Positions 1,680 through 50,696 of a stretch of 64,000 nt of DNA are shown piece after piece. How positions within the stretch are numbered: the first letter of the stretch is position 1; every line of letters starts with the position of its first letter. The notes under the pieces were generated by a model. That model was given only the letters and a program-made list of their open reading frames with translations, was not told where the DNA came from and did no database searches. The DNA is from Acanthochromis polyacanthus (lineage: Eukaryota; Chordata; Actinopteri; Pomacentridae). A program made the translations under genes and the position numbers. The stretch lies in NCBI RefSeq assembly GCF_021347895.1, contig NC_067127.1:39008916-39072915 (forward strand), in the 5' to 3' direction.

Positions 1680-3943
1680 ATGGCAAAGTTTGGATCGCCA
1701 GAGCAGTTTGATTTTTCGAAACCGGCCGAATGGACAATATGGCGCCGCCGCTTCGACCGCTACAGAATAGCCTCGAAGCTTAATAAAGACAGCGGCGAGG
1801 TTCAAGTAAACACACTTCTCTACGCCATGGGAAGAGAGGCAGAAGCCATATATGATTCGTTCGTGTTTAGTGACAGCGAAGATTCAGAAGCAGACGAGGA
1901 CGAAGAAGGTACGGAGAGAACGCGTTCAAAGTTGGACTATAGTAAAGTCATTCAAAAGTTCAGCGACCACTTTGTGCCGAAGCGCAACGTTATTCATGAC
2001 CGCGCATGCTTTTACAAGCGAGTACAGACGCCCAGTGAATCTGTGGAGGCGTTTGTGAGGAGTTTGTACAAACTAGCCCAATACTGTGAGTTTGGAGCCA
2101 TGAAAGACGAACAAATCAGAGACAGAATTGTGATAGGCATATCAGACAGCGATGTGTCTCAGAAACTACAGCTTGAAACTAACCTCACACTCGAGAAAGC
2201 TATTCAAATAGCAAGACAAAGCGAACAGATAAAGCAACAGAACACCACTATGCGCGCAGACTGCACACTAGATGCAATGAAACAAGGCAGGAGAAGGTCC
2301 TATGATAAGAAATGGACTGCGCACAGCCAGCGAGGGAGAGCTGAGGACTGCGAGCCGAGTTCTACAAGCTGCACCCGCTGTAAAAGACAACACGGAAAAA
2401 CTCAGCCCTGCCCAGCAAGAAACAAAAAGTGCAGGAAATGCAACAAAATCGGACATTTTGAGGTAGCTTGTTTTTCAAAGACTCTCAAGGAAGTAACTGC
2501 TGTTCCCTGTGAGCTGGACACTGATGATCAGTTTTTCATTGGAGCAGTGAACAAAGACACTGTTATTGAGCAACAAGGTACGGATGAGGGATGGTTGGTG
2601 AACTTACCTGTGAATGGCAACATGGTAGAGTTCAAAATAGATACAGGAGCCGACATTACAGTCATGACACAGGGTGAAGTTAAGAAGCTACAACACTGCC
2701 CCCGTCTGGTCGCTCAGCATAAGTCACCGCACGTCACAAGCCCAGGAGGAAAGGTACAGTGCACAGGCAAATTCCTGGCCACAAGCTACTACAAAGGACA
2801 AAAGTACAAGTTTTGGATAACTGTTATTACTGGCCCTTATGCACATAACCTGCTTGGTGGGAGTGTAGCCAAGAGAATGGGTCTAGTAAAACGAGTTGAT
2901 GGCATAAACACAGAACTGTTGGAGGATGTTTTCGGGGACATTGGCCTTCTCAAATGTGATCCGGTAAAGATTGAACTTAAAGCCAATGCAGAGCCCTACT
3001 CCTTAACCACACCACGAAGAGTGCCTTTTCCCCTTTTGCCAAAAGTTGAGGCTGAAATAAAACGTATGTTAACACTGGGGATAATCGAAGAGGTCACAGA
3101 GCCCACTGATTGGTGTGCCCCTATGGTACCGGTTGAAAAGATAAACAGAGAAAGAGTTCGGGTGTGTGTTGACCTCAAGTGTCTAAATAATGCAGTCAGA
3201 CGTGAAAGGTACATGCTGCCGACACTGGAGGACATAGCCCCAAAACTAGCGGGAGCAAAAGTGTTCTCCACATTGGATGCATCCTGTGGATTCTGGCAGA
3301 TCCCTTTGGAAGAAAGCAGCAGAAAACTAACTACTTTCATCACACCTATGGGGCGATTCTGCTTCAAGCGTTTACCTTTTGGGATTACGTCCGCCCCTGA
3401 AATTTTCCAAAGACAAATGTCTGAGCTGCTGAGGGGTCACGACGGTGTAGTAGTCGTGATGGACGATGTACTGGTATATGGCACAACAAAAGAAGAACAC
3501 GATAAGCGTCTGAGCAGAGTTTTGAGAACTATCAAAGAAAGCGGACTAAAACTCAACAAGCAGAAGTGTCATTTTGCACCATCAGAAATACAGTACTTTG
3601 GACACATTATCAGCGCTGAGAGAATGAAACCAGACCCCGACAAAGTCAAGGCCATAACCGAAATGCCAAGCCCAACAAACGTGGAAGAGCTCAGGCTGGT
3701 CTTAGGCCTCATCTACTACGTGGGACGGTTTCTCCCAGATCTCTCAACCAAGCTCCATCCAATCACAGACCTGCTCAGGAAGGAGAGCAAGTGGACTTGG
3801 AACTACGCACAAGAGCAAGCGTTCAAAGAAGTGAAGGAGATGCTTGTATCAGCACCAGCGCTTATGTATTACGATCCAAAAAGAGAGACTATCATTAGTG
3901 CGGATGCCAGCAGCTATGGTTTGGGAGCCACTCTGCTACAGGT
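1680..3943 (+). pseudogene. Gypsy gag-pol, first part (Gag, protease, RT, start of RNase H)
   Basis: One long open frame begins 42 bases after the 5' LTR. The N-terminal ~240 residues are Gag-like. Two cysteine-rich knuckles follow, the second fitting CX2CX4HX4C (CRKCNKIGHFEVAC, about residues 255-270). The aspartic protease motif is IDTGAD. The reverse transcriptase shows the conserved LPFGI block and a catalytic box VMDD in place of the usual YxDD. RNase H begins with an SADASS block near the end. The frame is cut by the Tc1 insertion at the TA at 3,943-3,944; the last codons before the stop at 3,980 come from the Tc1 repeat. Coding continues at 5,580. Gag and Pol share one frame, as in many Ty3/gypsy elements. 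Interrupted, so classed as a pseudogene. Confidence 0.88.
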
Positions 3944-3944
3944 A

Positions 3945-5578
<1,634 letters not shown>

Positions 5579-5579
5579 T

Positions 5580-7110
5580 ACACGAGGGCAAGTTAAAGCC
5601 AGTAGCTTTCTGTTCCCGCACTATTACAGACTCTGAGAAAAGATACTCACAAATTGAGAAAGAGTGTTTGGCAGGAGTATGGGCCTGTGAGAGATTTGCA
5701 CGGTATGTACAGGGCATGGACAGTTTCCGATTACAAACAGATCACAAACCACTGGTCCCTTTGATAAACACGTACGATTTAGACAGAGCTCCTCCCAGGT
5801 GCCAAAGACTTCTAATGCGGCTTTTGAGATTTCAGGTGATTGCAGAGCACGTTCCGGGGAAGCAACTAACTGTGGCGGACGCTCTCTCCAGAAACCCGCT
5901 GAGCAACACAAGCGACAGCAGCACTGATGACGAGGTACAAGTTTACTTGCAGTCTGTAGTAACGAACGCACCAGTGTCATCTCAAAAACTTAGAGAAATT
6001 AAAGCAGCCACACAACAGGACGAAGAGTTGGCAAAAGTCATCAGCCTAATACAAAAAGGCTGGCCCCCCAAACAGTCACTGCATCCTTCTCTTCATGGCT
6101 ATTATTCAGCACACTCACAGCTTTCAGAGGCAGACGGACTAGTATTGTATCAGGACAGACTGGTCATTCCTGCAGCTCTCAGGCAAGATGTTCTAAAACG
6201 CATCCATGAGGGACACCAAGGACTAACGAAGTGTCGCACCCGAGCAAGGATGTCAGTGTGGTGGCCACGCATCAGCATGGATATTACTCAGCTTGTTTCT
6301 ACATGCAGATTCTGTATCGAAAATAAACCTTCACTAAGACATGAGGCTCTTCTCACTACTCCCCTACCAGAAGGACCCTGGCAGCGCATTGTGGCCGACC
6401 TATGCGAGTTTGAGAAACAAAACTATCTGATTGTGACTGACTACTATTCCAGAGGCATTGAGATTGGTCACCTGTCAAGCATTTCAAGTAGACAGGTCAT
6501 CAGCAGACTAAAAAGTTTGTTTGTGAGATGGGGAATACCTCTGGAGTTAGTTACCGATAACGGCATGCAATTCACTTCAGACGAGTTCAAGCAGTTTTGT
6601 GCGGAGTATGGATTCTCACACGTAACTTCCAGCCCGCACTTTCCACAAGCAAACGGGGCTGCAGAGCGTGCCATCCAAACAGCAAAACATATCCTGAAAC
6701 AACCAGACCCTCATCTAGCACTAATGTGTTACAGAGCTACTCCAAATACTGCAACTGGTGAGAGCCCAGCAAAGATAATGACAGGGAGACGCATTAGAAC
6801 CACACTGCCAATGCCAGACAACAAAATGCAGTTTGAGCCTGCGAATAAACAAAGCATTCTGCTAAAGGACACTCAAACCAAATCATCTTACAAGTTTTTC
6901 CATGACCGCCATCACTCCGCTCGACCACTTCCCGAGTTACTTCCAGGACAGGACGTCAGAGTAAAGTTGGACGGAGAAAAAGTGTGGAAAACTTCTGCCA
7001 AAGTTCTCAGCAAATGTGATGAACCGCGCTCATATTTGGTGAAGATGGACAATGGGACGGTATCACGCAGGAACAGGAGACATCTCCAACTCGTTCACGC
7101 ACTTACGTAA
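5580..7110 (+). pseudogene. Gypsy pol, second part (RNase H end and integrase)
   Basis: Resumes the frame that stops at the Tc1 insertion. It has the remaining RNase H blocks (including TDHKPL), then the integrase zinc domain (a pair of His near HEGHQG and a CX2C near STCRFC), then the catalytic core with Asp in VADLCEF, Asp in VTDNGMQF and Glu in NGAAERA. The C-terminal segment is basic and ends just where the truncated 3' LTR starts, so the true C-terminus and the polypurine tract are probably lost. No internal stops are seen, so apart from the Tc1 insertion and the 3' deletion this copy was open. Confidence 0.87.
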
Positions 7111-11942: not shown

Positions 11943-12034
11943 CTGAGGAAGAATTAGCAAAGAACACAAACAAAATGTTTCAATCATCATGTACAACAAT
12001 AAACACGATGGAAATAGTTGATGAATCCACCTAC

Positions 12035-13832
12035 TCAGCTTTGTCGGAGGCTTTGACCACTGGCAGCAGCCTCAGAAAAGCCTCCTCTGAACCAGAGTAT
12101 TTCGTCAGGTGAAACACGTCCAGATGTTCTCCTGATGACAGTAAGATGAAGACCAGAGCTGACCACTGAGCGGGAGACAGTTTATCTGTGGACAGACGTC
12201 CTGATCTCAGGGACTGTTGGACCTCCTCCACTAGAGAAACATCCTTCAGTTCATTCAGACAGTGGAACAGATTGATGCTTCTCTCTACAGACACCTTCTT
12301 CCTGATCTTCTCCTTGATGTACTCCACTGTGTCCTGAATAGTCTGTGAGCTGCTTCCTGTCTGTGTCAGCAGACCTCCTAGTTTCTCCTGATTGGTCAGC
12401 AGTGACAGACCCAGGAGGAAGCGCAGGAACAAGTCCAGGTGTCCGTTTGGACTCTGTAAGGCCTCGTCCACAGCTCTCTGGTAGAAAGCTGTTGTTGGAT
12501 CAACTTTCTTTCTAAACACTTTAGACAACATAGATGCTTGTTGTTTTTCCAGCAGGTTGATTCCAGACTTGATGAAAATCTGATGGACATGAAGAGCAGC
12601 CAGAAACTCCTGCAAACTCAGATGGATGAAGCAGAACACAGTGTTGGTGTACAGCTTACCCTCCTTTTTAAAGATCTGTGTGAACACTCCTGAGTACACT
12701 GAGGCTGCTTCCAGATCAATGCCACACTCTATCAGGTCGGACTCATAGAAGATCAGCTTTCCTTTCTGCAGCTGCTCAAAAGCCAGTTTTCCCAGAGACT
12801 CAATCATCTTAATGCTGTCTGGACTCCAGTGTGGATCTGTCTTACGTCCTCCATCATACTTGACCTTCTTGACTTTGGTCTGAACCACCAGGTAGTGGAT
12901 GAACATCTCAGTCAGGGTTCTGGGCAGATCTCCTCCCTCTGTGCTTCTCAGCAGCTCCTCCAGAACTGTAGCAGTGATCCAGCAGAACACTGGGATTTGG
13001 CACATGATGTGGAGGCTTTGTGACTTCTTCATGTGGGAGATGATGCTGCTGGTCTGCTCCTCATCTCTGGATCTCTTCCTGAAGTACTCCTCCTTCTGTG
13101 GGTCGGTGAACCCTCTGACCTCCGTCACCATGTCCACACAGTCAGGAGGGATCTGATTGGCTGCTGCAGGTCGTGTGGTTATCCAGAGGCGAGCAGAGGG
13201 AAGCAGATTCCCCCTGATCAGGTTTGTCAGCAGCACATCCACTGACGTGGACTCTGTAACATCAGTCAGGACCTCATTGTTGTGGAAGTCCAGAGGAAGG
13301 CGACACTCATCCAGACCGTCAAAGATCAATACAACCTGGAAGTATTCAAACCTGCAGATTCCTGCTGCTTTGGTTTCACTGAAGAAGTGATGAACAAGTT
13401 CCACCAAACTCAATTTTCTCTCTTCAAGTAAATTTAGCTGTCTGAAAGTCAATGGAAACATGAAGTGGATGTCCTGGTTGCTTTTGTCTTCAGCCCAGTC
13501 CAAAGTCAACTTCTGTGTTAACACTGTTTTCCCGATGCCAGCCACTCCCTTTGTCATCACTCTTCTGATTGGTCCATCTCTTCCAGGTGAGCTTTTAAAG
13601 ATGTCTTCTGGTCTGATGCTTGTTTCTGCTCTGTCTGCTTTCCTGGATGCTGCTTCAATCTGTCTGATCTCGTGTTCATCACTGATATCTGCAGTCCGTC
13701 CCTCTGTGATGTACAGCTCTGTGTAGATCTCATTCAGGAGGGTTTGTTCTTCTGTAGAGACGCCCTCAAACACTCTCTGGAACTTTTTCTTCAGTGTAGA
13801 CTTCAGGTTGTGTTGACAGTTACTGAGAATCT
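12035..13832 (-). CDS. FISNA-NACHT exon of NLR gene 1
   Basis: A single 1,798-bp exon, open throughout. Acceptor GATTCAG lies just above 13,832 and donor CTGA|GTAGGT below 12,035. The first ~80 residues are the FISNA domain of fish NLRs (LKSTLKKKFQRVFEG, then TLLNEIYTELYITEG). NACHT follows: Walker A GVAGIGKT near exon residue 96, Walker B VVLIFDGLDEC near 167-177, and the ITTRPAAA sensor segment. The rest fits the NOD2-like winged-helix and helical domains, ending LLPVVKASDKAE. The product should be a cytosolic ATP-binding oligomerising receptor. All key motifs are intact. I avoid a symbol because the many fish paralogues cannot be told apart by eye. Confidence 0.95.
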
Positions 13833-14862
13833 CTGAATCAATAAACAACAAATGGCAGCAATAAGAAGACACAGTAAAACAATGATGGAGACATTTTCTG
13901 ATCAGTGGGATCTGTTCAGATCCTCAGACTGTCACGTCCTGACTGGGTAGAAGGTTTAAGAAGGAATCATCCACTAATATTTAACAGTAACCAAAATGTT
14001 GTCACAAAGGGAAAGCCTGGCGGAGGATCCAAACAATCCCAGAGACCAGACAGAAACAGTTTTACGGTGTTTTACTGACAGTACAGCAGGTGGACAGGTA
14101 GACCAGTAAACAGAACCAGAGAACAACCAAAGTCCAAAAACATGTGAGGTCAGAACAGGTGAGACCAAACAAGGATGGAACGCTTAGCTGAAGGAACAAA
14201 GACAATGTGGTGAAGGGTTTACAGCAGGAAGGAGGAGAGTGGAAACAGGTGAGCTGGTTGGGACACTGGGAGCAGGTGAGGTGGGTGTGGCAGACAGGAC
14301 TGAACACCTGAGGACACCTGGAGGGTGGAAGAGGTGCTGCATGGAGAACAAACATGTTCAGTGTGTGTCCACTCTGTAAGTCTGTCTGTGTGAGGTCTGC
14401 TGTGAACCTCCTCCACAGGTTTACATCTTTTATTTTACTCAATTCCAACATCAACATCAACTCAGAGGAAACCACAAACTGCATCAGCTGATCTGAGGAG
14501 GACTGAAAGTCGTCACGTCTCTGATCATCAGAAACAAGGAACCATGAGGCTTCTGGACCATCACGTTTTCATGTTTGTTGTACCACTGATAATAAATGAC
14601 ATTTGTTTGGTCCATGTATGGAGTCAGAATCATTATCATTGTGGAACGTGGATATTGTAATAAACTCACTACAGCACATATGATGAATGCTGCCAGTTTC
14701 CTCTGTGATAAAACAAGAACAAATAAAACTAAAGTGGGTCGAAGTCGCTCACATTTTCACAATGAACTACATGAAACTGGACTTTGTCTTCAACCATGAT
14801 GGGCCAAGAAAAGGCCATAAAGACCTGGACCAAAGTTTGAAACCTTCAGAGAAGCTTCAGAT
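13833..14862 (-). other. Intron between PYD and NACHT exons (near part)
   Basis: Non-coding by inspection. Several open frames of 60-140 codons are present on both strands but have no domain, and their composition matches intron sequence. A hAT-type MITE follows directly. Confidence 0.5.
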
Positions 14863-34604: not shown

Positions 34605-35329
34605 GCAATAGACATTATATTCATCCAAAGTAAAACAGGAAAAAAAAAACACTTGTATGTATTGACAGAACGGGCAGAAAACTACAGTCCCACCATCACT
34701 GTGCAATCTTTGAGAAATACCATCTCCTCAGCTTTGACAACCTCAGAACTTTCAAAAAGTTCTTAAAAAGTGCAAAAAATTTGTCTACTCCATGATTGTT
34801 TCAAAGGAGAGTTTCTGTTTTGTAAGTGTAAACATTAGCCTAATTGTAAAGGAAGGTTTCTCCCTCCTTTTAAAACTGGAAATATTAGACTAGAAGTACA
34901 AATATCAGCCTAAGTCTGATGTTGTCAAAGGCGGGTTTCACTCTTTCATATAAAATAAATGAAGTATGTATATGTGTATTTGTCAACAACAAAGACAGGA
35001 GTGCTTATATGAAGCTTGTTTTTGTAGGTTGGTTAATGTTGAGTGATTCTGTATATATTCTGTTAATTAATATGCTGTAGTTATGTTTTAACCCTCCTGT
35101 TGTCCTCACATCAAGGAAAGGACAGAGGTGAAGAAGCTAGGAAGGATGGAGGAAAGAAGCATTTTCTGTCTCTTACTATGAAAATCCAAAAAAGATTTTC
35201 AATGTTTAACTTCATACTTTTACTTGAGTAAAGTTCTTTTTACACAAGTATCTGTTCTATTAAAGAATGTGTGTACCTTTGGCACCTCTGTATATTGTAA
35301 ATATGTTTTTATATTTATGTTTACTTATA
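34605..35329. other. Non-coding spacer of the ISL2EU-like element
   Basis: Separates the transposase remnant from the first Tc1 insertion. AT-rich, no gene recognised. Confidence 0.4.
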
Positions 35330-36964
<1,635 letters not shown>

Positions 36965-37097
36965 TATATAGGCATTAAAAATATTTCATACTTTGAAGAC
37001 TGTCATAATATCCATAAAACATCCTGATATGCTTCCAGGGAAAGATGATAGACAATATTGAATTATCACCCTGCAATATTTGTAATTGTAACACCTA

Positions 37098-38733
<1,636 letters not shown>

Positions 38734-39969
38734 TACAATCAGTTTTTCAAAGAATTATACACAAACTCCCCAAGAAGTGCAGCGCTGATGTCCAGGGCCC
38801 CATATTACTAAGAATTTGTCCCAAAGTCTGTTTGCAAGCGACCTAAACCACTAACTGCATATAGGACCCCAGAGACACTGCAGTTATCTCCAACAGAGTT
38901 GCAGAAAGCATGCATGGATTTCAGACTCGAAGAGCTTACTCAGGCCCAGGTCCAGGCAGTAGAGGAAGAGACCAGAAAACAAAGCTCATCAAAACTCTGG
39001 TTCAGCCAAAAAGCAGGAAGAATAACAGTCTCTAGATTGAGGCAGGTTCTACAGACTAGTCTCTCACAACCATCAAAGTCCTTGGTCAAGTCCATATGCT
39101 GCCCAGAGGCACACAGGTTCTCTACCAACCCAGTCTCACATCAAATTGTGACATAGTCACGTTTGTCCACAATGCAAAACGTTACAATCTCACAATTTGG
39201 CCCTGAAAATTGTGAGATGCTCACGTTTTTTCCCCCAATTCTTTTCTATGGGTCTGACGAAGGGTCATGTGACTGCTTGCTGTAGCTTCTCAAAATGAAA
39301 ACATGGCGGCTTTTCCTTTTATTTTCCGTGGAAAATGCATTATTTTAAGATAGTTTGGACAGAAAAAAACATTTTGATGACATTTTTAGCGAGAAATATA
39401 TATAACACTTTCACATTATCCATTCAGTTATTGGAAATGATCTTTGGTTTGGTTTGTTTTTACGCTGAATTTCACTTCACGGCATTAAATTGTGACAGTG
39501 TCACATTTTGTACGTTATGCTGGTTGATTAGGACGCTGCCACAGACGAAAACAAGCGGTGTGTTTATTTTTGTATTGTTGCATTGTGTAATTTTTGAGTT
39601 GTTAAATCATTTATGTAACTCTTGGTGATTACTGCTAGTTACTGAGATGTCTTCCCCGGCCGTTCATTAGTTGACGCGCTTCGCTCCCTTGTTAACAAGT
39701 TGCATTTCAATGATCCACAAGTCGCTCGTTGTCAATGCAAACAACCGTATTTATTTCCATGAACGTGCTTTTACCGCAATCATTTGTTGAGCTCATCCAT
39801 AAACCAGTCAGCGCACAGCGATCTAAAAACTTTATTCCTGCCCACAACAAGATCCCCCTGTCTTTCTTTAGCCCGTGGAAGCGTCCATAGCAACCACCAT
39901 AGCAACGGTGGGAAACGTAACAGTTCCACTCCGAGACGTGAAAGATTCATCGTCATAGCAAACCAGAGA

Positions 39970-40203
39970 TCATACACAAGAACTGAACGAATATTGTGAA
40001 ATTAAAATGTATATTTTTTTGGTGTCGCTGTAATGCCTGAGGCTTTGCTGCTGTCCGCTTACAGTTGTCAAAACACGGGAGAACGACGTGCATAACCTGC
40101 TGCACCTTTCTTCTTCGGTGGTGTCTGTGTAAAACAATGTCCAACATGCAAACAGCACACCTAGCGCCATGAAGCACAAAATGCAGGTGTAAATCAATGA
40201 CAT
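39970..40203 (-). other. Short open frame with membrane-anchor-like N-terminus, left arm
   Basis: ATG frame beginning MSLIYTCILCFMALGVLFAC, a hydrophobic segment of signal-anchor type, then TDTTEEERCSRLCTSF. The right arm repeats it with one Cys-to-Gly change and an indel in an A-run that alters the end. No family recognised. A donor-like GTAAGC lies inside it. It may be a captured exon or chance. Confidence 0.25.
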
Positions 40204-40262
40204 CTTACAATTACAATGTCCTGTCTTTTAACTAATAAAGACACATATATAAAGAACTTTAC

Positions 40263-41080
40263 ATCAGTTTGTTTGTTTGTTTGTTTGTTTGTTTGTTTGT
40301 TTGTTTTATTAAGATCCCCTATCAGCTTTTGCAAAGCAGCAGCTATTCTTCCTGAGGTCTTCATAATTTCATTTGTGACAACACCAAAAAGCAACATGTA
40401 CACAAAATACATACAAATCAAATTACAAAATACATAAACAATGCATACAAAAATACACGTATACAATATAAATAACATGCATATACAAAACCTGTACTAA
40501 CCAAAAGCATACAACACATAATACTCCCACCTTGAATTATAAAAATAAAATGTTCTTCTTCAAAGATACCATGACCTAACAGTAATAATTAAAGAATAAT
40601 CTACCTCAGAAACCAACTATAACATAAATCACATAAACAGTGACATTACAGTCACTACATTTAAGTTTAAGATTTAATTTAATGAATTATTGTATTTTAC
40701 AAATTTATATTCCCAAGCAACCCAGTAAATTAATAACTAAAATTTTGTGCTACGTAATGCTCTTTTAGTTTTATTTTAAAGTTTTCAATATTACCCGTTT
40801 TTGAGAAAATCCGGATGTTATCACTCGCTCCCGACAAAATCATCATTTTTTTTTTAAATATTTTGGATTTCGATTAATTAGACAATGAACAAATTGCCGT
40901 AATTTCCTGGTGGGTGTGTTTATGCAGCCTATTAAACACTTTTTTCCCCATGAAATAAAGTACAATCCATACATCATGGTCCAGTGTTCATTGTTTGTTT
41001 TGTTCACTGACATAGTGCAATAAAGTTTTGTTTTTTAAACCATCCAGTACCGTAATGAATATTGAATGAATATGGCATCT
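40263..41080 (-). repeat. LINE 3'-end-like segment in the left arm, with (TTTG)n
   Basis: On the minus strand it ends GGGGATCTTAATAAAACAAAC followed by (AAAC)n, seen as ten GTTTG units at 40,268-40,307: the pattern of a CR1-like LINE 3' tail. The same segment is in the right arm with fewer repeat units. It must have been present before the arms were duplicated. The upper boundary is approximate. Confidence 0.55.
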
Positions 41081-42015
41081 TGTTTACATCTCTAATTAAG
41101 GAGCAAGAAATTTACTGACGTTGATTTATGATTCAAGACAAGCAGAGGACACACTGTGTGCCCCTTTAATGTCCAAAAGGCCAATTAAGGTCAAAATCTC
41201 ACAGATTCTTTGACCAATTTGGACCAATCTGCACATGTTTGATATTGGGTCCTAAACCAATACTGGTGTACGTTTGCAGACCACCAGGACCTACAACGGC
41301 AAAATAGGAGCAAAGAAGACACTGGAACAGGGGCCTTTGTTAAAATGAATGAGAAACACTGTGAGAACATCAATCAAAGTGCACCAAAGAGCATAAAGTC
41401 ATAGAACAGGGTGTGCTGAATGCTCTGGGAGCAAGTCTGCAGTGAAAACACCTTTGAAGGGGTCAAGGGTCACTAAATCTGAAGACTTCAAATGAAGGAG
41501 ACAGTTTGTGCAACATATCAAGTATCATAAAAGTCATTCCCAGTGGAATTCAAGTCTGATATTGTGTGGGACTATTCAGAGCAGTCACATGAAGCACTGT
41601 ATCTGTTTTCAAGGGTCTAGCTCCATGGGAATCTGCTTTTTTCAGCAGTGAGGCCTGCTAGCAGTGATGAAGCCTGAGGCCTTCAAACATGTAAAAATCA
41701 TTCCTGCTCGGTCATTTTTGGGTCTAGTGACACCAAATCGGACACACTCCTACTAGATCACCCCCTGACCTTGCATATTTTTTTTCAGAGAGTTAGCTTA
41801 AAAGGGGACTGAGCACGGCCCTGTTTCTGACTCTACGATTAACCCTTTCATGTCCAAATGCTTCAAAACGGACTAAAAAGGTCAAAATCTCACACATTCC
41901 TTAATCAATTTGGACCAAACTGCACAGGTTCTAGATATAGAGGCTAATGTGAATGCTCATGCACGTTTCAGACCTCCAGGGGCCCTGAAGAAGGAATGAG
42001 GGCCAAAAAAAACCA

Positions 42016-43469
42016 AAGTGCATTTTTTCGGTTCTCTATACTTCTATCCATGGTTGTGCTGTTTTCATAGAGGCACACAACTTTATATTGCAGTAAAAAC
42101 AATGAGCCCAGGGGGATTTAAAATACGACTGGAGCCACTAGAAACTACTTCAGGGAGTTAATGACACACCAGCATAGCAACACAACTACAGCAACAACAA
42201 ATAACACAACATCTACAGAGAAAAATATCATTATTGCTCTCCTCATTATTACGAAATATACAGACTCTTTATATATGAGGAACCATAAACACGCTAAAGA
42301 CACAATAAAGTAGCCAAAAAAAGGTAATGAATAAAGTTTCACACAAACAAACATAAGTTTTGTGTGTGTGGGCAAAGTGTTCTTTTCAGAGTCAGTCAGC
42401 GCAGCACAGTGAGGTGCACCAAAGAAAATTAATGATAAAATGATGACTAAATGCTGAGATGTTATGATGAATAAAACAGAGATTTTTCAGTGATGGAATA
42501 TTCTTTTCCACTTGTACAATGACTGCAAGGAAATTGTGCTACAACCAAACAGCAAACTCTTTGAATGAACAATAAAGGCAACATGGAAATGCAGAAAATT
42601 ACAGTTTGTCAAACGTCTGCTTGAAGCTGCTTCAAAAACGAGTTAATCTCTATGGATCCCTGCGTTAAAATGTCCAAGTTTACAGCAGTCTTTTTTGCTC
42701 CTGTTTTGCCGTTGTAGGTCCTGGTGGTCTGAAACCGTACACCAGTATTTGTTTAGGACCCAATATCAAGCATGTGCAGGCTGGTCCAAATTGGTCAAAG
42801 AATCTGTGAGATTTTGACCTTAATTGGCCTTTTGGACATTAAAGGGACACACTTCCAAACTTCAACATGGTACCATCTGGCCCCCTGTTGACCTAGGAAG
42901 CTGATATTGTGTATACAGACTCACAGGGGGCCCTAGTACTTGTGGTTAAAATTTCGTCCCGTTCGGGTAAAAAATGAGGGTGAGGGTCTAATTCCACTGG
43001 CAGAAGGCTCTCAGGGTCAATGAGTCTAACAAGACCTGATTTTCCAACATGAACACTTGGTCAGATTTTTCTACTGGGACCCTGGGGCTGATCTTTTACT
43101 ATGTTATACTAGGCTATATTTGGAGCTGAACTGTGGTGGTTTGGTGTCTCTGTGACCTTCCTGTGACCCCTGGCACAGGGTCAAAATGTCACATTTTTGG
43201 ACATTGAAGCCCCATAAATTAGTAATTTTTGCATCAAATGAGCTGAAACTTTTAGGGGTGATTTAGGTGACCTTGGTGAACAATTGATTTGAAGCACAAG
43301 TCTCTAGGTTGTTCCTGGAGCTACTTCCGGTTTGGGAGGGGCTAGCAAAATAGTTCCAGTGGATTTAGATTTTAGATGTTTCAGAGGTACCAGATCCCAG
43401 GTTTCAGCTCTCTGAGTGTAACAGAAGTGAAATGAGAGCAAAAGAGGGACAACTATTGAAAAACATGTT
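42016..43469. repeat. Loop of the giant element, with an internal subrepeat
   Basis: Contains at 42,690-42,845 another copy of a ~150-bp unit (GTCCTGGTGGTCTG..., then GGTCCAAATTGGTCAAAGAA, ending TTGGACATTAAAGGG) that also occurs at 44,163-44,315 and inverted at 41,165-41,320. More diverged versions lie at about 43,490-43,640 and inverted at 41,845-42,005. No gene is recognised; a 76-codon minus-strand frame at 42,145-42,375 is hydrophobic but unassigned. Confidence 0.65.
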
Positions 43470-45256
43470 TTTTTTGCCCCTCATTCCTTCTTCAGGGCCC
43501 CTGGAGGTCTGAAACGTGCATGAGCGTTCACATTAGCCTCTGTATATAGAACCTGTGCAGTTTGGTCCAAATTGGTTAAGGAATGTGTGAGATTTTGACC
43601 TTTTTAGCTCGTTTTGAAGCATTTGGACATTAAAGGGTTAACCGTAGAGTCAGAAACAGGGCCGTTCTCGGGCCCCTTTTAAGCTAACTCTCTGAAAAAA
43701 AATATGCAAGGTCAGGGGGTGATCTAGTAGGAGTGTGTCCGATTTGGTGTCACTAGACCCAAAAATGACCGAGCAGGAATGATTTTTACGTTTGAAGGCC
43801 TCAGGCTTCACACTACTAGCAGGCCTCACTGCTGAAAAAAGCAGATTCCCATGGAGCTAGACCCTTGAAAACAGATACAGTGCTTCATGTGACTGCTCTG
43901 AATAGTCCCACACAATATCAGACTTGAATTCCACTGGGAATGACTTTTATGATACTTGATATGTTGCACAAACTGTCTCCTTCATTTGAAGTCTTCAGAT
44001 TTACTGACCCTTGACCCCTTCAAAGGTGTTTTCACTGCAGACTTGCTCCCAGAGCATTCAGCACACCCTGTTCTATGACTTTATGCTCTTTGGTGCACTT
44101 TGATTGATGTCCTCACAGTGTTTCTCATTCATTTTAACAAAGGCCCCTGTTCCAGTGTCTTCTTTGCTCCTATTTTGCCGTTGTAGGTCCTGGTGGTCTG
44201 CAAACGTACACCAGTATTGGTTTAGGACCCAATATCAAGCATGTGCAGGTTGGTCCAAATTGGTCAAAGAATCTGTGAGATTTTGACCTTAATTGGCCTT
44301 TTGGACATTAAAGGGGCACACAGTGTGTCCTCTGCTTGTCTTGAATCATAAATCAACGTCAGTAAATTTCTTGCTCCTTAATTAGAGATGTAAACAAGAT
44401 GCCATATTCATTCAATATTCATTACGGTACTGGATGGTTTAAAAAACAAAACTTTATTGCACTATGTCAGTGAACAAAACAAACAATGAACACTGGACCA
44501 TGATGTATGGATTGTACTTTATTTCATGGGGAAAAAAGTGTTTAATAGGCTGCATAAACACACCCACCAGGAAATTACGGCAATTTGTTCATTGTCTAAT
44601 TAATCGAAATCCAAAATATTTAAAAAAAAATGATGATTTTGTCGGGAGCGAGTGATAACATCCGGATTTTCTCAAAAACGGGTAATATTGAAAACTTTAA
44701 AATAAAACTAAAAGAGCATTATGTAGCACAAAATTTTAGTTATTAATTTACTGGGTTGCTTGGGAATAGAAATTTGTAAAATACAATAATTCATTGAATT
44801 AAATCTTAAACTTAAATGTAGTGACTGTAATGTCACTGTTTATGTGATTTATGTTATAGTTGGTTTCTGAGGTAGATTATTCTTTAATTATTACTGTTAG
44901 GTCATGGTATCTTTGAAGAAGAACATTTTATTTTTATAATTCAAGGTGGGAGTATTATGTGTTGTATGCTTTTGGTTAGTACAGGTTTTGTATATGTATG
45001 TTATTTGTATTGTATACGTGTATTTTTGTATGTATTGTTTATGTATTTTGTAATTTGATTTGTATGTATTTTGTGTACATGTTGCTTTTTGGTGTTGTCA
45101 CAAATGAAATTATGAAGACTCCAGGAAGAATAGCTGCTGCTTTGCAAAAGCTGATAGGGGATCTTAATAAAACAAACAAACAAACAAACAAACTGATGTA
45201 AAGTTCTTTATATATGTGTCTTTATTAGTTAAAAGACAGGACATTGTAATTGTAAG

Positions 45257-45460
45257 ATGTCATTGATTTACACCTGCATTTTGTGCTTCATGGCGCTAGG
45301 TGTGCTGTTTGCAGGTTGGACATTGTTTTACACAGACACCACCGAAGAAGAAAGGTGCAGCAGGTTATGCACGTCGTTCTCCCGTGTTTTGACAACTGTA
45401 AGCGGACAGCAGCAAAGCCTCAGGCATTACAGCGACACCAAAAAAAAATATACATTTTAA
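45257..45460 (+). other. Short open frame with membrane-anchor-like N-terminus, right arm
   Basis: Right-arm counterpart of the frame at 39,970-40,203, ending earlier after a shifted A-run. See that entry. Confidence 0.25.
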
Positions 45461-46357
45461 TTTCACAATATTCGTTCAGTTCTTGTGTATGATCTCTGGT
45501 TTGTTATGACGATGAATCTTTCACGTCTCGGAGTGGAACTGTTACGTTTCCCACCGTTGCTATGGTGGTTGCTATGGACGCTTCCACGGGCTAAAGAAAG
45601 ACAGGGGGATCTTGTTGTGGGCAGGAATAAAGTTTTTAGATCGCTGTGCGCTGACTGGTGTATGGATGAGCTCAACAAATGATTGCGGTAAAAGCACGTT
45701 CATGGAAATAAATACGGTTGTTTGCATTGACAACGAGCGACTTGTGGATCATTGAAATGCAACTTGTTAACAAGGGAGCGAAGCGCGTCAACTAATGAAC
45801 GGCCGGGGAAGACATCTCAGTAACTAGCAGTAATCACCAAGAGTTACATAAATGATTTAACAACTCAAAAAATTACACAATGCAACAATACAAAAATAAA
45901 CACACCGCTTGTTTTCGTCTGTGGCAGCGTCCTAATCAACCAGCATAACGTACAAAATGTGACACTGTCTCAATTTAATGCCGTGAAGTGAAATTCAGCG
46001 TAAAAACAAACCAAACCAAAGATCATTTCCAATAACTGAATGGATAATGTGAAAGTGTTATATATATTTCTCGCTAAAAATGTCATCAAAATGTTTTTTT
46101 CTGTCCAAACTATCTTAAAATAATGCATTTTCCACGGAAAATAAAAGGAATACCCGCCGTGTTTTCATTTTGAGAAGCCTGCAGCAAGCAGTCACATGAC
46201 CCTTCGTCAGACCCATAGAAAAGAATTGGGGGGAAAAACGTGAGCATCTCACAATTTTCAGGCCAAAATTGTGAGATTGTAACGTTTTGCATTGTGGACA
46301 AACGTGACTATGTCACAATTTGATGTGAGACTGGGTTGTCTCTACAGCTGCAACAAG

Positions 46358-48698: not shown

Positions 48699-48862
48699 TT
48701 TCTCTATTATGAGACTTATGAATTTTAAATCTTAGATTTACTACTCTATTATGTTTTTCAGTCTGGTTTAACTATATTATCTCCAGTGTTGTTAAAATGA
48801 ATCAAATGTTCTTGTGTCTATACATGTATTTCCATAGGTATTCATAGTATGTAACTGTAATA

Positions 48863-50496
<1,634 letters not shown>

Positions 50497-50696
50497 TAAG
50501 TCTCAGATCCTCGCTCCACTCTTGGACACTGGACTAAAGGTCTCTCTGTTTGTTGCTCACCTGCAAATGTGGAAAGAGTACTGAAAAGTTTCACTACTTA
50601 AGTGAAAATTATTTAAAGTGCAAGTAAAATGACTACTTCAGGAAATTACTCTATATCTCCATTATCTGTAGTTTTTTTTAAAGTAGTCAATTTAAA

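Follow-up and report, generated by a model that had tools for sequence, protein, structure and literature searches.

Galileo, a foldback-like transposon of Drosophila belonging to the P superfamily, has been described with 7-bp target-site duplications and with terminal inverted repeats of up to about 1.26 kb that grow by recruiting internal sequence, and, in the part of its description available, the longest repeats are confined to copies lacking a transposase (PMC3573991); we count this trait and the recruitment as likenesses to the element reported here. This element lies in a stretch of 64,000 nucleotides of Acanthochromis polyacanthus (called the window throughout), in which a first-pass annotation had proposed a 7.2-kb palindromic element with near-identical inverted arms of 2.9 kb. 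Alignment of the arms (2888 and 2872 bp) bears this architecture out, with 97.925% identity over 2892 columns and 36 mismatches, and the palindrome together with its duplication is far beyond chance. We consider that the element is very probably a copy of a family of non-autonomous foldback DNA transposons of a teleost, giant palindromes mobilised in trans. Beyond the earlier annotation, we found that it belongs to a multicopy and recently mobile family, whose arms evolve together.

Other described systems resemble the element in part. The Tetris/DAIBAM foldback of Drosophila virilis is likewise non-autonomous, with modular arms, repeats of about 200 bp and a non-coding middle, and no autonomous copy is reported in the available part of its description; it differs in its 8-10 bp duplications, its suggested Mutator affinity, a flanking domain of up to 866 bp and in that only three structurally complete copies were found (PMC4079207). 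Pdre2, a P-like element of zebrafish and thus also of a fish, has tips that start with CA and an 8-bp duplication of similar length, whereas the available excerpt gives it 13-bp terminal repeats of another sequence and a THAP9 transposase of its own (PMC10983969). The Dada elements of fishes make duplications of 6-7 bp, but their U6 and U1 families, as far as the excerpt goes, are without terminal inverted repeats and are inserted in small RNA genes (PMC3706591), while the present element has long repeats and its window copy sits in a protein-coding exon. The first-pass annotation had recognised no superfamily, and we likewise found neither a published description of the element nor a known family to which it could be assigned in the literature searched, most subscription journals, Repbase and Dfam lying outside that search.

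Copies across the genome and their target-site duplications

The genome searched was the window's own (957 Mb, 81 contigs). The exact 23-nt tip occurs in it 170 times (87 forward, 83 reverse) and its reversed control never; among the first 100 occurrences listed, 84 make 42 inverted pairs and 16 are unpaired, and the pairs measure 7.0-7.3 kb in 22 cases and at least 6.5 kb in 33. Searches with the first 301 bp of the element and with a 451-bp piece of its spacer returned 278 and 109 candidates, respectively, and in each search all 40 that were scored proved 98-100% identical. The element is one member of a multicopy family.

We read 29 loci, namely the window, 20 from the 301-bp search and 8 with shorter pairs from the exact-tip listing. 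Tips are carried by all 20 further loci from the 301-bp search, the right one being altered in L089 and L090. Arms of 2.74-2.89 kb run uninterrupted in 11 of the 19 giant-type copies (window included), the other copies having deletions or insertions; at least 1243 bp of the spacer is kept in 15 of 19 copies compared, and full-length copies resemble one another in their inner arm breakpoints. Some copies have an insertion nested in a single arm (L098, L086 and a 14-kb copy on C3, a giant copy with a gag-pol retroelement in its right arm), so that arms are able to diverge by insertion. Among the shorter members, L101 and L103 have terminal repeats of 45 bp and contain part of the spacer, and L104 and L105 have a single arm with a 346-bp terminal repeat. 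Since L105 stands equally far from almost all giant arms, at about 94-95% identity, it is an old branch, which may be either a progenitor or a deletion product. One copy, L090 (C8:25.74 Mb), is chimeric: its right arm has a tip region (tip CAACCCAGTCTCATGG...) that comes from a related family and is about 75% alike to that of the window copy.

A perfect 7-bp duplication was found at 24 of the 29 loci, window included (16 of the 20 from the 301-bp search and 7 of the 8 with shorter pairs), and the precise 7-bp duplication of the first-pass annotation thus holds when its length is measured across copies. The flanks compared were up to 400 bp long in the first 21 loci; in the 8 shorter ones they measured about 100 bp. 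L079 (C1:69.32 Mb) and L094 (C1:36.95 Mb) have the same flanks in opposite orientation, and the L094 stretch holds 5000 N, which may reflect a duplicated locus or a misassembly. Flanks are also shared by L101 (C3:40.48 Mb) and L103 (C13:22.59 Mb), again in opposite orientation, and by L104 and L105 (C9:4.95 and 4.92 Mb), which means that duplication took in the insertion sites of these pairs. When each of the three pairs is merged as one insertion, 26 independent insertions result, 22 of them with a perfect 7-bp duplication. By eye, base counts reveal no strong consensus (23 duplications, one insertion being counted twice).

The copies L082 and L083 are 99.86% identical, with 3 aligned bases and 7 gaps different over 6930 bp, yet they lie between unlike duplications, ATATGAT and GGCTGAG, and their movement must therefore be recent. 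Insertion of the family is precise, with a 7-bp duplication, and it has moved recently.

The family may extend to other fishes. A 19-nt tip, CAACCCAGTCTCACATCAA, lies inside the microsatellite primer Lun05 of the butterflyfish Chaetodon lunulatus, as given in the available part of that report (PMC3298945), a match that suggests such a presence and is not a proof of it.

Transposition of the whole palindrome and exchange between its arms

The history of the arms was followed in a tree and in pairwise distances of 26 arms from 13 copies, with L081, L085, L088, L094, L097 and L098 (damaged, reduced or bearing a nested insertion), L089 and L090 omitted. In the tree, the left arms of the window copy, L086 and L087 group together and their right arms likewise; in L082 and L083, too, each arm pairs with its counterpart on the same side, and the same one-arm deletion is present in both. 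Arm-specific differences common to close relatives mean that the finished palindrome was copied, and not rebuilt at each jump. The palindrome transposes as a unit.

Arms of the same copy differ on average by 1.06%, while between copies the mean is 2.26% for the same arm and 2.30% for opposite arms. The near equality of the last two values argues against a mere divergence of left and right since one ancient palindrome, in which case same-arm distances would be clearly smaller. Copies had been chosen by their likeness over the first 301 bp, a biased stretch, and the test was consequently repeated on arm positions 302-2600, where arms of one copy differ by 0.92% on average, a value reached in none of 20000 partner shuffles. 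Moreover, 27 changes private to one copy are found in both of its arms, against 89 in one arm, while we estimate from the counts of private changes that about 0.02 independent double hits would be expected. These two-arm changes and the closeness of arms within a copy show that the arms exchange sequence.

We propose that a transposase from elsewhere would recognise the tips, that the element would be cut out, and that it is inserted with a 7-bp staggered cut, as its duplications attest. The palindrome may have arisen from a shorter element whose terminal repeats grew inward, and the amplified form probably had a single origin, because the inner breakpoints are alike in full-length copies. Amplification then proceeded as a ready palindrome, to judge from the arm-specific differences of close relatives, and the transfer that keeps the arms alike might take place between jumps, or in gap repair after excision or hairpin formation. 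The non-autonomous transposon with giant inverted arms already put forward by the first-pass annotation gains support from the duplications, from the precise insertion into a nuclease exon and from the lack of any transposase among the frames searched.

Several observations, however, weigh against this reading. Five of the 29 loci are without a perfect 7-bp duplication: in L079 and L094, which count as one insertion, 6 of 7 bases are alike, L090 has an 8-bp duplication, and L085 and L106 have none. An autonomous element with the tips of the family was not found, and mobilisation in trans is to that extent inferred. Complete homogenisation is contradicted by several values. Just 13 of the 26 arms are nearest to the other arm of their own copy; the two arms of a copy are sisters in 4 of 13 copies in the outer region and in 1 of 13 in the inner one; and in a set of eight representatives, distances within copies reach 1.68%, more than the smallest distance between copies (1.28%). 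In the window copy, 12 of the 36 differences fall inside 206 bp (none of 5000 shuffles is as tight), a cluster that bins place at the inner end of the arms; divergence rises a second time in the outermost 200 bp, and both stretches are more diverged than the remainder. Exchange between copies could also place one change in both arms. From the nearest-partner count and the overlap of distances, homogenisation would be partial, or slower than recent transposition.

A different explanation is that the palindrome is built anew at each insertion, a single-arm element being copied with inverted duplication through template switching or gap repair gone wrong, and that the likeness of the arms reflects their youth. 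This would agree with arms being closer within a copy than between copies, and with the existence of single-arm and short-repeat members (L104/L105 and L101/L103), but we regard it as improbable, since the arm-specific differences shared by the window copy, L086 and L087, those of L082 and L083 with their common one-arm deletion, and the alike inner breakpoints require the inheritance of a ready-made palindrome. Very unlikely, in our opinion, is a composite formed by two head-to-head insertions and moved by its outer ends: such pairs do arise, as two Tc1-like elements in this orientation just upstream in the window illustrate, but no second full tip was seen at the inner arm ends, the best internal tip-like match lying instead at 39483, and the inner ends are alike in full-length copies. 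An assembler that duplicated the arms in inverted orientation, the danger that the first-pass annotation itself had pointed out, is hardly credible, for although long inverted repeats are hard to assemble and L094, with the flanks of L079, stands beside 5000 N, such an artefact is excluded by the many independent copies with their own perfect duplications (24 of 29 loci), by arm-specific differences common to several copies and by insertions nested in one arm only (L098, L086). A foldback transposon moving as a finished palindrome is the reading that we retain.

Coding content, tips and the interrupted host exon

When one arm and the spacer are read through in six frames, no Pfam protein domain appears, the only match being YmgD with an E-value of 0.2, under its cut-off; all Pfam matches of short frames inside the element are equally under their cut-offs, a 109-aa frame of the left arm finds no protein at E-values of 1 or less, and Rfam has no match in the element. 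The first-pass annotation, which had recognised no transposase, was therefore right for these frames.

A mobilising enzyme was looked for elsewhere in the genome. The P-type, THAP9-like transposase domain PF21787 has 39 matches, of which several possess open frames of 200-583 aa, and the shortest distance from a match to a known tip (CAACCCAGTCTCA; 115 tips, with the first 100 of the 170 exact ones listed) is 34 kb. No tips of the family were found at the five of these 39 loci that were read (L099, L100, L110-L112), and a search for terminal repeats enclosing P-type loci gave one 7-bp candidate (L099) and one 8-bp candidate (L111), with tips unlike those of the family. For hAT transposases there are 1867 candidates, of which 150 were scored, and some belong to families of equal-length open frames. 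Two members of the family were considered as autonomous and rejected: the 14-kb pair on C3 is the giant copy with the nested retroelement, and frames and sequence of L103 show a nested element, which we take to be Tc1/mariner-like. In the IMG/VR viral collection, a 14-nt tip occurs in 69 contigs, none alike past the pattern, and the 19-nt tip in a single contig, by chance; a 21-nt tip occurs in no GTDB contig of the prokaryotic collection.

Coordinates of the window copy and of the exon that it splits are collected in the table. The first difference between the arms stands at 39199. About 360 bp from the element end, a tip-like motif scores 18.5 against 18.0 in the best of 200 shuffles, a weak signal, and the terminal 165 nt fold better than shuffled sequences (z -3.6; 1 of 200 shuffles equally good).

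Features of the palindromic element and its insertion site (positions in the window)
Feature	Position	Strand	Remark
Palindromic element, 7213 bp	39126-46338		exact coordinates
Left target-site duplication TCTCTAC	39119..39125	+	read in flanks
Left arm, 2888 bp, tip CAACCCAGTCTCACATCAAATTGTGAC...	39126..42013	+	arm alignment
Terminal 73 bp, same in both arms	39126..39198	+	presumed transposase site
Internal tip-like motif, possible second transposase site	39483..39521	+	weak motif score
165-bp internal repeat unit, left arm	41156..41320	+	also 42688-42852 (spacer) and 44157-44321 (right arm)
Spacer, 1453 bp, no protein domain	42014..43466	+	
Right arm, 2872 bp, inverted copy of left arm	43467..46338	-	arm alignment
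Right target-site duplication TCTCTAC	46339..46345	+	read in flanks
Host YqaJ-type nuclease exon split by element	38812..46357	+	38812-39125 plus 46346-46357; 38812 is the open-frame start; next exon from 46561

Removal of the element had been said to rejoin a nuclease exon in frame. When the flanks are joined without the element and one TCTCTAC, they read ...PEAHRFSTAATRYGCKYV... across a normal splice junction; the restored exon ends in ...HRFSTAATR and YGCKYV follows after the intron. The joined peptide has a YqaJ match in Pfam that spans the joint (E-value 5e-8), and four uninterrupted fish homologues (P0001-P0004) are colinear through it, with identities of 79% in Pseudochaenichthys, 78% in Pogonophryne, 62% in Merluccius and 59% in Nothobranchius, in agreement with that claim. 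The window also holds an exon of a FISNA-NACHT (NLR) gene, which is fish-specific (12031-13923, minus strand), and this gene and the homologues of the YqaJ protein point to a teleost host.

Four near-identical Tc1/Sleeping-Beauty-like elements of 1.64 kb, about 99.1-99.8% alike, are found in the window at 3943-5580, 35328-36966, 37096-38735 and 48861-50498. Three of the four hold a 378-aa frame, and two form a head-to-head pair, with 129 bp between them, directly upstream of the split exon.

Significance and comparison with known foldback elements

Replication is expected to destabilise near-perfect palindromes that are several kilobases long. Despite this expectation, one vertebrate genome holds tens of giant palindromes, and at least one pair of them is only 3 aligned bases apart over 6.9 kb. 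The family amounts to many independent palindromes, which reveal their relative ages by their sequence and their empty sites by the duplications, and it offers a natural experiment on the formation, survival and homogenisation of palindromes. A further reading, rather doubtful in our estimation, is that the giant palindrome is itself the successful transposing form, its 2.9-kb arms being tolerated in tens of copies, kept alike through conversion between the arms that is coupled to excision and gap repair, and mobilised by a lineage of transposases still to be described for foldbacks of vertebrates. The family is also a possible source of inversions, as Galileo is in flies, and copies without matching flanks are candidates for it. 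One of them, L085 (C24:5.94 Mb), has exact tips at both ends and no target duplication; it may be a product of recombination between copies, and hence a rearrangement breakpoint.

Concerning the superfamily, hAT elements are characterised by 8-bp duplications, whereas the present family has 7 bp at 24 of 29 loci and 8 bp at L090 alone; some hAT lineages have duplications of other lengths. The same 7 bp lies outside the 8-10 bp of Mutator elements (MULEs), a group in which duplications cover a wider range than this. The 7-8 bp duplications of the P superfamily (Galileo, 1360, P) do agree with it, and because of this duplication length, the CA tip and the parallel with Galileo, the P superfamily is our leading guess, which we put forward tentatively.

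Features that characterise foldbacks are found in the fish element: a middle domain between long inverted terminal repeats, movement as a unit, internal repeats (the 165-bp units of arms and spacer) and a repeat length that varies between 45 bp, 346 bp and 2.74-2.89 kb. Compared by described features and not by sequence, the element is like Galileo in its 7-bp duplications, in the length and internal repetition of its terminal inverted repeats and in their variation between copies; in the available part of the description, Galileo differs in its repeats of up to about 1.26 kb and in its known copies with transposase sequence (PMC3573991), while in the fish arms of 2.9 kb are the usual form and a transposase was not found. 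On the strength of these analogies, the element appears to work like Galileo and other foldbacks, and we regard it as a variant within the known foldback kind.

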